From Flavobacteriaceae bacterium (lineage in GTDB: Bacteria > Bacteroidota > Bacteroidia > Flavobacteriales > Flavobacteriaceae), in assembly GCA_013043685.1 (NCBI GenBank), contig JABDNT010000002.1:124001-188000 (forward strand): 64,000 nucleotides of DNA, written 5' to 3'. Positions within the stretch are counted from its first letter, which is position 1; each line of letters begins with the position of its first letter. The notes beneath the pieces are model-generated. The model saw only the letters and a program-made list of their open reading frames with translations. It ran no database searches and was not told where the DNA came from. Shown here one piece after another: positions 6,925 to 12,796 of the stretch. A program made the position numbers and the translations under genes.

Positions 6925-9900
6925 ATGAGTACATTCAGTATAATTCAGCAAAAGCTGGAACAATTTATAAAAAAATACTACACCAATGAATTGATCAAAG
7001 GTGCGATATTGTTTTTTGCTATTGGGCTGTTATATTTCATTGTTACGTTACTTGTCGAGTATTTTTTATGGCTTGACCCTTTTGGAAGGACTGTATTGTT
7101 CTGGCTTTTTGTCGGGGTAGAAGCAACCTTATTTATTCGATTTATTGCCTTCCCGCTGGCGAAGCTGTTTAACCTGCAGCGAGGAATCAGCCATGAAGAA
7201 GCTTCCAGGATCATTGGAAATCATTTTCCACAGGTAAGCGACAAGTTGTTGAATGTGATTCAGCTGAATCAGAATCAGCGCGAATCTGAATTGCTGATGG
7301 CGAGTATCGACCAGAAGGCATCACAACTTCAGCCAGTGCCGTTTAAGCGTGCTGTCGATTTCAGGAAGAATGCCAGGTACCTCAAATATGCCGCTATTCC
7401 CATTGTAATTTTTGCACTGATCAGTGTATTAGGAGACAAAGATATATTCTCGAGCAGCTATGAGCGTGTTGTGAATTATGACACTGCTTATGAACCCCCG
7501 GCGCCATTTTCATTTTTAGTCACAAACGAGTCGCTCAGGGCCATAGAGAACAAACCTTTCACTCTTAAAATAAGGACAGAAGGAGAGGTGATCCCCGAAA
7601 ATGCAAGCATTAACTATAACAACGAGGTTTACTATCTCCAACAAACAGCCCCGGGCATTTTCGAATATACATTTCTGCAACCTACAGAAGCCGTGTCTTT
7701 TGTATTACAGGCCAATAAGGTTGTTTCAAAAGAATATACCATTGATGTTGTAAAAACGCCTTCGCTGCGAGCTTTGGAAATGGTGCTGGATTATCCGGCC
7801 TATACCGGCAAACGGGATGAGATATTGAAAAGCACAGGTAACGCCACAATTCCAGAAGGTACCAGGGTTAAATGGAAAGTAAATGCACTGAATACGACTT
7901 CCGTTTCACTTAAAACAAGGGATACAATGTTTGGTTTTAATGAAACAGCAGCTAAAGAAAGCATTGTGAAAGAGCAACATTTCGAATTGGACCGTCGGGT
8001 ATATCGAAAACTGGATTATGCCATAACAACATCCAATGATAATTTAAAGGAGTATGAGAATATCTCCTTTACGCTGGGAGTGATCAAAGATGAATACCCC
8101 GAAATAGATGTTCAATCGAAACAAGATACCACCAACTCTCAGATTGTCTATTTCCTGGGACAGGTTAGCGATGATTACGGGCTTTCAAAATTGCGCCTTG
8201 TATTTTACCCCATTGGTGAAGAAGATAAAGCCGAATCGGCGAGCTTACCGGTTAATAAAACCACAGTAGATCAATTTGTATTCACATTTCCCGGGGAATT
8301 GCCTTTGCAGGATGGGACTGCGTACGAATATTATTTTGAGGTATTCGATAATGATGCTATACACAATTTCAAGTCCAGCAAGTCCGGAGTATTTGCTTTT
8401 AGAAAGCTAACCAAGGACGAGATTGAAAATGAGCAACTTCAGAACCAGGAGAACACCATTAAGGATCTTGATAAAACGCTGGACGAGTTAAAACAACAGG
8501 ACAAGAAGCTTGAGGAGTTGAGCAAACTTCAGAAAGAAAAGAAAGAACTCAATTGGAACGACAAGAAGAAACTGGAAAACTTCATCAAGAGACAAAAGCA
8601 GCAGGAAGAGATGATGAAAAATTTCTCCAAGGAAATGAAGGAGAATCTCGAGAATTTTCAGCCTGAAAATGAAGAAGAGGATCCGTTCAAGGAGCAGCTG
8701 GAAAAGCGTTTGGATGAAAATGAAGAGCGACTAAAGGAAAACGAAAAGTTGTTGGAGGAACTGGAGAAAGTTCAGGATAAAATTGAGAAAGAGGAGCTTA
8801 CGGAGAAGCTTGAAAAACTCGCAAAACAAAACAAGAATCAAGAGAAGAACCTGGAGCAGCTTCTGGAATTAACCAAACGTTACTACGTTGCAAAGAAAGC
8901 TGAGAAACTTGCCGAGGAAATCTTCAAGCTTGGTGAAGAGCAGGAGAAACTAGCCGATAGCCCAGAGGAAGAAAATACCAAGGAAGCACAGGAAGAATTG
9001 AATGAGAAGTTTGAAGAATACAAGAAGGAGATGGACGAGCTTCAGAAAGAAAATGAGGGCCTCAAATCACCCATGGAGATCCCCCAGGATGAATCGGGAG
9101 AGAAGAAGGTAGATGAGGAACAACAAAAAGCGACGGATAATCTTCAGCAGCAGAAACAACAAGACGCCCAGAAGAATCAGAAAAAAGCGGGTCAGAAAAT
9201 GAAGCAGATGGGCCAGCAAATGCAGGCCGCGATGATGCAGGGACAAATGGAAACCATTTCTGAAGATGTAGAGATGCTAAGACAGATCCTGGATAATTTA
9301 GTGGTGTTCTCCTTCGAGCAGGAATCCCTTATGGAAGACTTTAAAGTAACCGATTACGGAAATCCTGTTTTTGGAAAGAAGCTGAATGTACAGAACGATC
9401 TCAAGCTTAATTTCCAGCATATAGACGATAGTTTATTTGCTTTATCACTAAGACAACCCATGATAAGCGAGCCTATAAATGAGTCTATCACTGAGGTGCA
9501 GTATAATATTGATAAAGCGCTGGAACGTCTGGCCGAGAATCAGATGAGGCAGGGTATATCGAGCCAACAATATAGTGTTACCGGCGCCAATGAGCTGGCG
9601 ATACTTTTAAGTGAGTTGCTTGGGAATATGCAGAATCAAATGCAGATGTCCGGACAGGGTTCTGGCCAGGGACAAGGTCAGGGCCAGGGTCAGGGGCAGG
9701 GCAAAGGATTTCAGTTACCCGACATTATTAAGAAGCAGGAGAGTCTTTCAGAGGAGATGCAAAAAGGAATGGGAAGCAAACCTGGTGAGAACAGTGGTGG
9801 CAGTGAAGGAGAGTCAGGGGGCGAAAGTCAAGGTGAACAAGGTGAGAATGGTCGTCAGGGAGAAGGTAAGGACGGAGAAGGAGGTAAGTCAGGGAATGGA

Positions 9901-10380
9901 GAAGGAGGGAATAACGGAGACGGGAATGGTGATAGTGATGGCGAAGGAGGAGAAAATGACAATGAAGATATGAATGGGCTTCTGTATGAAATATATAAGC
10001 AACAACAACAATTAAGGCAGCAACTACAAGACAGGCTGAGTAAAGAGGGACTGAAAGGAAAGGGCGGCGATATTTTACGACAAATGGAACAGGTTGAACA
10101 ACAATTATTGGATAAGGGATTCAACGAAAGAACATTGCAGCAAATGCTTAATTTGAAATACGAGCTTTTAAAATTGGATGAGGCGGACTTTGAACAGGGA
10201 CAGGAAAGCAGGAGAGAATCTCAAACCAATAGGAATAAATATCAGAATACACTTCGTTTGTCCCCTGAGGATGTTAAGAAGTATTTCAATACTACAGAAA
10301 TTCTGAACAGGGAGGCGCTTCCATTGCGTCCTGAATTTAAGGAAAAAGTGCAGTCTTATTTTAAGAAGAATAATGGTTAA
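6925..10380 (+). CDS. DUF4175-family giant membrane protein
   Basis: 1151 residues. Three hydrophobic segments (about 23-50, 58-82 and 152-170) are followed by a predicted periplasmic beta-rich region (about 185-490). A long charged coiled coil rich in Glu, Lys and Gln (about 500-760) comes next, then a conserved helical block (about 770-900). A low-complexity tract begins with a Gly-Gln repeat (QGQGQGQGQG, near nt 9665-9700), continues as a Gly/Glu/Ser/Asn-rich acidic stretch to about residue 1015, and leads to a final helical domain. This matches the Bacteroidota DUF4175 family, whose role is unknown and which is sometimes mislabelled 'ATPase'; I see no Walker motif. The ybeY start overlaps its end by 8 bases, so they are co-transcribed. 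Confidence 0.85.
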   Translation: MSTFSIIQQKLEQFIKKYYTNELIKGAILFFAIGLLYFIVTLLVEYFLWLDPFGRTVLFWLFVGVEATLFIRFIAFPLAKLFNLQRGISHEEASRIIGNHFPQVSDKLLNVIQLNQNQRESELLMASIDQKASQLQPVPFKRAVDFRKNARYLKYAAIPIVIFALISVLGDKDIFSSSYERVVNYDTAYEPPAPFSFLVTNESLRAIENKPFTLKIRTEGEVIPENASINYNNEVYYLQQTAPGIFEYTFLQPTEAVSFVLQANKVVSKEYTIDVVKTPSLRALEMVLDYPAYTGKRDEILKSTGNATIPEGTRVKWKVNALNTTSVSLKTRDTMFGFNETAAKESIVKEQHFELDRRVYRKLDYAITTSNDNLKEYENISFTLGVIKDEYPEIDVQSKQDTTNSQIVYFLGQVSDDYGLSKLRLVFYPIGEEDKAESASLPVNKTTVDQFVFTFPGELPLQDGTAYEYYFEVFDNDAIHNFKSSKSGVFAFRKLTKDEIENEQLQNQENTIKDLDKTLDELKQQDKKLEELSKLQKEKKELNWNDKKKLENFIKRQKQQEEMMKNFSKEMKENLENFQPENEEEDPFKEQLEKRLDENEERLKENEKLLEELEKVQDKIEKEELTEKLEKLAKQNKNQEKNLEQLLELTKRYYVAKKAEKLAEEIFKLGEEQEKLADSPEEENTKEAQEELNEKFEEYKKEMDELQKENEGLKSPMEIPQDESGEKKVDEEQQKATDNLQQQKQQDAQKNQKKAGQKMKQMGQQMQAAMMQGQMETISEDVEMLRQILDNLVVFSFEQESLMEDFKVTDYGNPVFGKKLNVQNDLKLNFQHIDDSLFALSLRQPMISEPINESITEVQYNIDKALERLAENQMRQGISSQQYSVTGANELAILLSELLGNMQNQMQMSGQGSGQGQGQGQGQGQGKGFQLPDIIKKQESLSEEMQKGMGSKPGENSGGSEGESGGESQGEQGENGRQGEGKDGEGGKSGNGEGGNNGDGNGDSDGEGGENDNEDMNGLLYEIYKQQQQLRQQLQDRLSKEGLKGKGGDILRQMEQVEQQLLDKGFNERTLQQMLNLKYELLKLDEADFEQGQESRRESQTNRNKYQNTLRLSPEDVKKYFNTTEILNREALPLRPEFKEKVQSYFKKNNG

Positions 10381-10789
10381 TTTTTGTTCTGAAAATGAAT
10401 TCATTCTCGACCAAGAAGCGGAAGTATCGGATTGGATAAGAGGCACAATAATGTCTGAGGGATATAAATTAGGTGAAATTACGTTTGTATTCTGTGACGA
10501 TTCATACCTCCTTGAGATTAACAAGGAGTTTCTTCAGCACGACACCTATACAGACATAATCAGCTTTGATTATTCACTTGGAAAAGAAGTGCATGGCGAG
10601 ATCTATATTTCTATCGAACGGGTACAAGAGAATGCGGTAGAATTTGAGACTCAATTTAGAGACGAGTTGCACCGTGTTATTATTCACGGAGTACTGCACT
10701 TATGTGGCTATAATGACAAGGAAACTAATGATAAGGTTCTTATGCGAACTAGGGAGAATGAGTGCTTGTTGGCTAGAAACTTCCTCTAG
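10373..10789 (+). CDS. ybeY: Endoribonuclease YbeY (rRNA maturation)
   Basis: 138 residues. The UPF0054/YbeY fold is marked by INKEFLQHDTYTDIISFDYS and HGEIYISIERV, then the metal motif HRVIIHGVLHLCGYNDKE near residue 103. YbeY is a single-strand RNA endonuclease for 16S rRNA 3'-end maturation and late 70S quality control. Two of the three zinc-binding His residues (HxxxH) are present; the position equivalent to the third His in E. coli is Asp here, which from memory is common in Bacteroidota homologues. The start overlaps the preceding stop by 8 bases. An AT-rich hairpin follows the stop directly. Confidence 0.93.
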   Translation: MVNFCSENEFILDQEAEVSDWIRGTIMSEGYKLGEITFVFCDDSYLLEINKEFLQHDTYTDIISFDYSLGKEVHGEIYISIERVQENAVEFETQFRDELHRVIIHGVLHLCGYNDKETNDKVLMRTRENECLLARNFL

Positions 10790-10844: not shown

Positions 10845-10852
10845 TATCTTTG
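10845..10852 (+). promoter_or_regulatory. Bacteroidota -7 promoter element for mnmG
   Basis: TATCTTTG matches the TAnnTTTG -7 consensus of the Bacteroidota primary sigma factor. It lies 51 bases before the mnmG ATG. I see no clear -33 TTG at the usual spacing. The predicted leader (from about 10859) would contain the parS-like palindrome. Confidence 0.6.
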
Positions 10853-10874: not shown

Positions 10875-10892
10875 TTGTTCCACGTGGAACAA
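10875..10892. promoter_or_regulatory. parS-like centromere site (ParB box) 1
   Basis: TTGTTCCACGTGGAACAA is a perfect 18-bp palindrome. Its central 16 bases match the bacterial chromosomal parS consensus (TGTTnCACGTGAAACA in B. subtilis) at all but one defined position, with G for A in the right arm. ParB binds such sites for origin segregation. It lies 11 bases before the mnmG start codon. A second site lies just after mnmG. Confidence 0.85.
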
Positions 10893-10903
10893 GACGAATA
10901 AGT

Positions 10904-12775
10904 ATGTTTGAAAAGGAATATGATGTAATCGTAGTTGGTGCAGGCCATGCGGGTTCTGAGGCGGCGGCAGCCGCGGCCAATATGGGATCTAAGACGCTTC
11001 TGGTAACCATGAATCTTCAGAATATTGGACAGATGTCGTGCAATCCTGCCATGGGAGGAATCGCTAAAGGGCAAATCGTTCGTGAAATTGACGCGCTTGG
11101 AGGTTACAGTGGTATAATTTCCGACAAGACAGCCATTCAGTTTAAGATGCTCAATATATCAAAAGGGCCTGCCATGTGGAGTCCACGAGTACAAAGTGAT
11201 CGTATGAAGTTCTCGGAAATGTGGAGATTTATGCTGGAGCAGACACCAAATTTGGATTTTTATCAGGAAATGGTCTCTGGTATCATCGTTGAGGGATCCA
11301 GGGTTACCGGGGTGCGAACTTCTCTAGGTTTAGAAATAAAAGGAAAATCTGTTGTACTTACAAATGGCACCTTTCTCAATGGGTTAATTCATATTGGGGA
11401 GAAGCAATTTGGCGGAGGAAGGGCAGGTGAAAAGGCTGCTACGGGAATTACAAAGGATCTTGTTGAATTAGGTTTTGATTCAGGGAGAATGAAAACCGGG
11501 ACACCTCCAAGAGTTGACGGAAGGTCATTAGACTTTTCAAAAATGATAATTCAACCAGGAGACGAGGAACCCCAAAAATTTTCTTATCTGGATAGCACGG
11601 AACCTTTAAAAGAACAACTTCCATGTCACATGACATATACGTCCACTCATGTTCATGATCTGTTACGTGAAGGTTTTGAAAGGTCGCCTATGTTTAATGG
11701 AAGGATAAAAAGTATTGGTCCGAGATATTGCCCGTCGATCGAGGATAAGATTAATCGATTTGCGGAGAAGGACAGGCATCAGTTGTTTGTGGAACCAGAG
11801 GGATGGAACACGGTAGAGTATTATGTAAATGGATTCTCTACCTCATTGCCGGAGGATGTTCAGTTTAAGGCACTGAAAGAGTGTGAGGGATTTGAAAATG
11901 TCAAGTTTTTCCGTCCGGGCTATGCCATAGAGTATGATTATTTTCCGCCCACACAGTTAAAGCATACGCTGGAAACGAAACTAGTGGAAGGACTGTTTTT
12001 TGCTGGTCAGATTAATGGTACTACCGGGTATGAAGAAGCAGCTTCTCAGGGATTAATGGCAGGTATGAATGCCCACTTAAAAATTCAGGATAAAGATCCG
12101 TTTATTTTAAAAAGGAATGAGGCATATATAGGGGTTTTAATCGATGATTTAATTACAAAAGGAACAGAAGAACCTTACAGGATGTTTACTTCCCGAGCGG
12201 AGTACAGGACCTTGTTGAGGCAGGATAATGCAGATTTCAGACTAACGCCCAAATCATACGAATTAGGGCTTGCTTCAGAAGAAAGGATGAAAACCATGGA
12301 ACGGAAAAGGAAGAAGTCAGATGAGTTCGTGAATTTTTTCAAGAAGACCAGCGTAAGTCCGAATGAAGCAAATCCTATTCTGGAGGCAAATGATTCTGCC
12401 AAAGTGAAGCAAAGTGACAAAATGTTCAAACTGTTTTCTCGTCCCGAAATAGATATGGAGGACATGAAACATATCGCTTCTGTTTCATCGTATATTGACG
12501 AAAATGATTTGGATACGGAAGTGCTGCAGCAAGCGGAGATTCAGATTAAGTATGCCGGTTATATTGAGAAAGAGAAAAATAACGCAGACAAACTGAATCG
12601 GCTGGAAGGCATCAGGATTCCACAGAATTTCGATTATAGCAAGCTTAAATCTCTTTCTTATGAGGCTATGGAAAAGCTAAAAGCCATCCAACCCGCAACT
12701 ATTTCCCAGGCTAGCAGAATAAGCGGAGTTTCGCCTAATGACATTTCTGTTTTATTAGTTTACATGGGACGATAA
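10904..12775 (+). CDS. mnmG: tRNA U34 carboxymethylaminomethyl-modification enzyme MnmG (GidA)
   Basis: 623 residues. The N-terminal FAD-binding Rossmann motif is VIVVGAGHAGSEAA (about 9-22). Further GidA blocks include MSCNPAMGGIAKGQIVREIDALGG, RPGYAIEYDYFPPTQL, GLFFAGQINGTTGYEEAA and EPYRMFTSRAEYRTLLRQDNAD. A helical C-terminal domain ends ATISQASRISGVSPNDISVLL. With MnmE it makes cmnm5U34 in tRNAs reading NNA/NNG codons. The gene is bracketed by two parS-like sites, as expected for an origin-proximal gidA. Length is normal and the start is at a clear ATG with a -7 element upstream. Confidence 0.98.
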   Translation: MFEKEYDVIVVGAGHAGSEAAAAAANMGSKTLLVTMNLQNIGQMSCNPAMGGIAKGQIVREIDALGGYSGIISDKTAIQFKMLNISKGPAMWSPRVQSDRMKFSEMWRFMLEQTPNLDFYQEMVSGIIVEGSRVTGVRTSLGLEIKGKSVVLTNGTFLNGLIHIGEKQFGGGRAGEKAATGITKDLVELGFDSGRMKTGTPPRVDGRSLDFSKMIIQPGDEEPQKFSYLDSTEPLKEQLPCHMTYTSTHVHDLLREGFERSPMFNGRIKSIGPRYCPSIEDKINRFAEKDRHQLFVEPEGWNTVEYYVNGFSTSLPEDVQFKALKECEGFENVKFFRPGYAIEYDYFPPTQLKHTLETKLVEGLFFAGQINGTTGYEEAASQGLMAGMNAHLKIQDKDPFILKRNEAYIGVLIDDLITKGTEEPYRMFTSRAEYRTLLRQDNADFRLTPKSYELGLASEERMKTMERKRKKSDEFVNFFKKTSVSPNEANPILEANDSAKVKQSDKMFKLFSRPEIDMEDMKHIASVSSYIDENDLDTEVLQQAEIQIKYAGYIEKEKNNADKLNRLEGIRIPQNFDYSKLKSLSYEAMEKLKAIQPATISQASRISGVSPNDISVLLVYMGR

Positions 12776-12780
12776 TAAAT

Positions 12781-12796
12781 TGTTCCACGTGAAACA
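12781..12796. promoter_or_regulatory. parS-like centromere site (ParB box) 2
   Basis: TGTTCCACGTGAAACA matches the B. subtilis parS consensus TGTTnCACGTGAAACA at every defined position. It lies 5 bases after the mnmG stop and 14 bases before the methyltransferase ATG, about 1.9 kb from site 1. Confidence 0.88.

Follow-up and report, generated by a model that had tools for sequence, protein, structure and literature searches.

Organisation of the mnmG locus

The window analysed here is a stretch of 64,000 nucleotides (C77:124001-188000) of a draft genome of a Flavobacteriaceae bacterium (3.0 Mb, 83 contigs, 97.7% complete). It encodes mnmG (gidA), and the initial annotation had described parS-like palindromic sites before and after this gene; both were present. 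The features of the locus, in positions of the window, are as follows.

10373..10789, + strand: ybeY, the neighbour on the upstream side (YbeY 4.1e-28)
10845..10852, + strand: TATCTTTG, putative -7 promoter element of mnmG (by resemblance to the consensus)
10875..10892, unstranded: predicted parS site 1, a palindrome of 18 bp, TTGTTCCACGTGGAACAA (read from the sequence)
10876-10891: core 16-mer of site 1, TGTTCCACGTGGAACA, which ends 12 nt 5′ of the mnmG ATG
10904..12775, + strand: mnmG (gidA), encoding the tRNA-modifying enzyme MnmG of 623 amino acids, between both sites (open reading frame; GIDA 1.2e-162, SAM_GIDA_C 3.8e-25)
12781..12796, unstranded: predicted parS site 2, TGTTCCACGTGAAACA, which starts 5 nt past the mnmG stop codon
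12811..13662, + strand: SAM-dependent methyltransferase-like gene, the neighbour on the downstream side (Methyltransf_23 3.4e-23)

Site 1 had been called a perfect palindrome, and this was borne out over its whole 18 bp (10875-10892). Site 2, as claimed, matched all of the defined bases of the B. subtilis parS consensus, TGTTNCACGTGAAACA. A search of both strands of the window with up to 3 mismatches to TGTTNCACGTGAAACA revealed 7 matches compared to a mean of 1.66 in shuffled sequences, 7 being reached in 1 of 100 shuffles. The -7 promoter element of the Bacteroidota is TAnnTTTG, which TATCTTTG (10845..10852) resembles; such an element would put site 1 within the transcribed leader of mnmG. 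Elsewhere in the window, the gene for a 1151 amino acid DUF4175 protein (6925-10380) had an unusually strong purine skew; between 8001 and 10000, within this gene, the GC skew was 0.25 and the AT skew was 0.29.

Occurrence of the palindrome in the genome

Analysis of the whole draft genome with the symmetric pattern TGTTNCACGTGNAACA revealed two exact places, which were the sites flanking mnmG; five further places had two mismatches and no place had one. The reversed control pattern yielded 11 places with up to two mismatches in the same genome, against 7 for TGTTNCACGTGNAACA, and the two-mismatch matches were therefore at chance level. As the sites flanking mnmG were the only exact places, with none at one mismatch and with 7 matches overall compared to 11 for the control, they were not due to chance. 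Equally good matches away from mnmG were thus not found anywhere in the genome assembly. The background in 1.6 Mb sampled from four closed relatives consisted of no exact, no one-mismatch and nine two-mismatch matches.

ParB, ParA and DnaA of the genome

The initial annotation had also stated that parA, parB and dnaA are absent from the window, which proved correct: the window is on contig C77, whereas the only ParB_N match in the genome (2.7e-33) was on contig C79 and the only match to the DnaA C-domain was on contig C16. A ParA-like open reading frame of 254 amino acids with the motif KGGVGKTT, identified by reading the sequence, stopped 6 nt ahead of parB. The HTH of this ParB contained the equivalents of Q162, G170, K171, R173, N178, G201 and R204, with N at the position of S172, and its N domain contained GERRYRA and ENIQR, the CTP-binding motifs. 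These Caulobacter residue numbers were placed on the protein by spacing, and a gapless alignment with a segment of Thermus Spo0J agreed with them.

In the sections of PMC7383237 drawn on here, R173 and G201 of Caulobacter ParB are described as parS-contacting residues that are absolutely conserved in ParB and altered in Noc. Eleven ParB loci were read, nine of which fitted the search pattern and encoded both G201 and R204; those of G030 and G002 did not fit. As the search pattern itself demanded Q162, G170 and R173, the presence of R173 in the eight other ParB proteins is by construction. R173 of the ParB encoded by the source genome was borne out by alignments, including that with Thermus Spo0J.

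Linkage of the sites to mnmG across the phylum

The exact site was present in 226 of 296 genomes of the phylum and mnmG in 295 of them; the reversed control pattern matched 3 of the 296 (the 3 were counted by eye). From 150 mnmG places listed, out of 295 and ordered by score, a panel of 80 genomes was chosen, not at random, which represents 34 of the phylum sample's 50 family labels, with family f17 among those left out. Each panel locus comprised mnmG and 4 kb on each side, two loci being cut by contig ends, and the strands, the genome site totals and, for the closed genomes below, the places of mnmG, parB and dnaA were entered by hand.

The 80 panel genomes contained 108 exact sites, 93 of which fell within 4 kb of mnmG (one of the 93 inside mnmG). 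An exact site was found within this distance in 54 genomes, and 20 of the other 26 contained one there that departs from the pattern at one or two bases. When the distance was narrowed to 1 kb from mnmG, 67 of the 80 genomes had a site with up to one mismatch and 74 had a site with up to two; under the latter threshold the sites were on both sides of the gene in 25 genomes, upstream only in 24, downstream only in 25 and on neither side in 6. Sites on both sides, under the same thresholds, were found in all 15 members of the source genome's own family and all five of its sister family, and in five of the 60 other panel genomes. The mismatches in the 156 panel sites (up to two mismatches) were mostly at the two outermost bases (approximately 24% of sites each), compared to at most approximately 3% at the other defined bases, a low core rate that partly results from the selection at two mismatches or fewer.

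A further set comprised the 80 best loci from 144 relatives, mostly Flavobacteriaceae, and will be referred to as the named set. All 80 of these loci had an upstream site with up to one mismatch, which was 6-23 nt ahead of the ATG in 79, and a downstream site with up to one mismatch was present within 700 bp in 79; that of the remaining locus, L263, had two mismatches. Both sides were occupied at up to one mismatch in 79 of the 80. Additionally, mnmG adjoined a site in all of five f17 genomes from outside the panel, three of which (G063, G052 and G106) had a pair of sites at a distance of 1896 bp.

No site with up to two mismatches was found within 4 kb of mnmG in six of the 80 panel genomes (G091, G037, G013, G179, G254 and G251). 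In G179 and G254 the exact sites shared a contig with mnmG, at a distance of 12-18 kb, and in G013 they were on another contig; in two f9 genomes the exact site was 25-27 kb away from mnmG. The 15 exact sites that were outside mnmG neighbourhoods came from G003, G072, G013, G030, G179, G254, G200 and G050. When 30 parS loci were fetched with 1.5 kb on each side, mnmG was present in 23, and of the seven without it four were from f5 and two from f9, the last being at the end of a contig.

Position of the replication origin

The window had initially been proposed to lie near oriC. On C77 the cumulative skew minimum was at 101.7 kb and mnmG is at 135-137 kb, while the twelve best strand-separated skew change points extended from approximately 97 kb to 131 kb with near-equal support, in a weak skew and a draft of 83 contigs. 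The turn in skew on the draft itself is loosely placed and is consistent with an origin near mnmG. A total of 21 DnaA boxes (TTWTNCACA) were scattered over C77 with no cluster near mnmG, and because C77 contained no DnaA-box cluster, oriC itself was not located.

A clearer signal came from the third-codon-position skew, split by gene strand, than from the plain GC skew, which was noisy both in C77 and in two relatives. Third-position skew in four closed relatives was analysed in 20 sampled stretches of 20 kb per genome. The skew origin of G226 (4.18-4.40 Mb) included mnmG (4.291 Mb), as did that of G095 (2.66-2.86 Mb; mnmG at 2.764 Mb). The skew origin of G118 (1.20-1.30 Mb) missed mnmG (1.376 Mb) by 75-175 kb, and two sampled stretches to the left of mnmG in this genome already had right-arm skew. 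That of G134 (1.62-1.66 Mb) missed mnmG (1.587 Mb) by 30-75 kb, with a weak fit. The observed skew contrast was reached in none of 200 permutations for G226, G095 and G118, and in 10 of 200 for G134. Placing the origin at dnaA gave a negative skew contrast in all four closed relatives. Plain coding-strand bias gave no support to mnmG in either G118 or G095; in both genomes it favoured dnaA over mnmG.

The distances between mnmG, dnaA and parB were determined in the 20 of 34 closed genomes for which all three places were available (11 in the order and 9 outside). In the 11 genomes of the order, mnmG was 19-45% of the chromosome away from dnaA and 15-46% away from parB; outside the order, the separation from dnaA was 16-251 kb, or no more than 6% of the chromosome, in six of the nine genomes. 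Predictions by Ori-Finder and GC skew have placed oriC at mnmG in Flavobacteriaceae, according to the sections of PMC11278836 and PMC12843772 considered here. The sites are therefore probably in the origin region, a placement that rests on the skew of the four closed relatives, one of them weak, and on these published predictions. To this extent the initial proposal stood, and the draft genome itself was no more than consistent with it.

Smc-ScpAB and MksE

Profile models for ScpA and ScpB matched neither the source genome nor any of its 12 closed relatives within the order. The Smc matches in these genomes were weak (22 bits at best in the source genome and up to 37 bits in the relatives, with a cut-off of 567). 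Smc, ScpA and ScpB were all matched in each of the 22 closed genomes outside the order, although in G030 Smc was split into two pieces, which scored below the cut-off. MksE was matched in two of 35 genomes, neither of which is in the order, with no match in the source genome or its 12 closed relatives. The control genome, that of Bacteroides ihuae, had no ScpA or ScpB match, and the text of PMC10197239 that was considered describes two gut Bacteroidetes with no known condensin homologue; condensin loss in the phylum is therefore not confined to the order.

As Smc, ScpA and ScpB were undetected, we infer that ParB in the order would not act by loading Smc-ScpAB. A strongly diverged condensin may be encoded in the order. 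A tentative reading, which we hold to be rather less probable than its converse, is that the two-sided parS bracket is a condensin-independent centromere in the order: Smc-ScpAB would have been lost (MksE was undetected too), ParB-parS and its position would have been kept, and ParB clamps from both sides would organise the origin by themselves or together with a partner that has escaped recognition. The two-sided arrangement is itself independent of condensin loss, as G063, G052 and G106 of f17 have two sites and yet match ScpA, ScpB and Smc.

Identity of the sites and alternative explanations

We interpret the two sites as the chromosomal parS centromere of a Flavobacteriaceae-like bacterium, which would load ParB for ParA-driven segregation of the origin-proximal region (probability approximately 0.94). 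The identification as parS, first suggested in the initial annotation, was upheld by the match to the consensus, by uniqueness in the genome, by parS-type residues in the cognate ParB and by recurrence beside mnmG in the phylum sample. Both are almost certainly ParB docking sites, as predicted from their sequence. By analogy with established ParABS systems, ParB dimers from a single parAB locus at a different chromosomal position would bind each 16-bp palindrome, and the bound ParB would close as a CTP-dependent clamp. The clamps would slide into the adjoining DNA, including mnmG between the two loading sites, and assemble a partition complex, and ParA-ATP would then separate the origin-proximal region after replication.

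The palindromes could instead act as RNA and control mnmG expression, site 1 through a hairpin in the leader and site 2 through a hairpin or terminator behind the gene. Site 1 could fold into a stem of 7 bp with a loop of 4 nt. The regions around site 1 and site 2 gave better folds than the majority of shuffles (z -1.97 and -2.93, respectively), but the minimum-energy folds around both sites differed from the palindrome hairpin. The minus strand of site 1 was classed as terminator-like, but three such sites were present in the stretch compared to a shuffle mean of 2.0. Reading the sites with mnmG, the pairing-compatible form T..G outnumbered C..A by 19 to 4 in the named set of closely related genomes, whereas across the panel the pair-breaking C..A was found 26 times and T..G 21 times, with no preference for the pairing form. 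The central ACGT would be the unpaired loop of a hairpin, yet it is the ACGT that mismatches avoid (at most approximately 3% per base) and the outer pair that they hit, in sites selected at two mismatches or fewer. Sites are also found elsewhere upstream only, downstream only or in arrays of several, which the RNA reading does not fit. On the basis of the folding and of the pairing between positions 5 and 12, an RNA hairpin or terminator was rejected as the main explanation, and we regard this reading as very improbable.

A different possibility accepts the sites as true ParB sites and makes their main role regulatory, with clamps in the leader and trailer tuning mnmG transcription and so coupling tRNA modification to replication or segregation. 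The short distance of site 1 from the ATG (12 nt), shared by 79 of the 80 named loci (6-23 nt), fits with this, but other lineages have sites downstream only (25 of the 80 panel genomes) or hundreds of bases upstream. No further exact sites occur in the genome beyond the two flanking mnmG, which makes a centromere the simpler interpretation; a mainly regulatory role is unlikely. Recognition of the sites by Noc or a different ParB-like protein, rather than by ParB, has a negligible probability. The general likeness of parS and NBS palindromes is all that points to Noc, but the Noc site, TATTTCCCGGGAAATA in the sections of PMC7383237 drawn on here, does not fit the sites flanking mnmG, and the one ParB_N protein in the genome has the ParB-type R and G and not the Q173/R201 type.

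Comparison with known systems

The chromosomal parS consensus is given as TGTTTCAC-GTGAAACA in the same sections of PMC7383237. The system described here shares with chromosomal ParABS the 16-bp palindrome, HTH and CTP motifs in ParB, a ParA-like gene adjoining parB and, in relatives, a probable origin-proximal position. It differs in that sites are kept on both sides of mnmG in its own family, in the large distance of mnmG from parB (15-46%) and dnaA (19-45%) in the 11 closed genomes of the order, and in that Smc-ScpAB, a common though not a defining partner, was not detected. In the text of PMC10197239 considered here, parS clusters in gut Bacteroidetes were likewise used to locate an origin that is not always tied to dnaA, and a known condensin homologue was not found in the two species studied; unlike the present work, it covers two Bacteroidetes species and its main text has no occurrences of mnmG or gidA. 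PMC11278836 and PMC12843772, in the sections considered, predicted the origin at the same gene in Flavobacteriaceae, but ParB and centromeres do not occur in their main texts, where the single match to 'pars' in each is 'parsimony'. The legend of Figure 3 of PMC11278836 labels mnmG as ter and leuB/dnaA as oriC, which contradicts that paper's own text.

As a kind of element parS is already known; the steady bracketing of mnmG together with the undetected condensin is the moderately interesting part. Among the titles listed of open-licence papers on parS with mnmG, gidA or the phylum, none described the mnmG bracket. In Flavobacteriaceae and much of the phylum sample, mnmG is a practical landmark for the centromere and probably for the origin region, whereas dnaA, at which several genome records start, does not mark the centromere or origin in the order. 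This landmark bears on origin calling and on growth estimates from metagenome read coverage. A large bacterial group would also offer ParB-parS without detectable Smc-ScpAB, in which the segregation role of ParB could be separated from condensin loading.

Variant arrangements of the sites

In 9 of the 80 named loci (L204, L209, L211, L212, L215, L216, L250, L257 and L259) the nearest downstream site was 473-477 nt past mnmG. Seven of these nine were read (all except L211 and L216), which revealed an open reading frame of approximately 150 codons after mnmG with parS at or just past its stop codon. The frame of this small open reading frame was broken by a shift in L209. The exact parS pattern was found within the mnmG coding sequence at L010:2038 (G017) and L141 (G147). 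Loci L099 and L100 (G170 and G206) each contained an array of eight parS-like sites (0-2 mismatches) in approximately 600 bp upstream of mnmG, with one more downstream.
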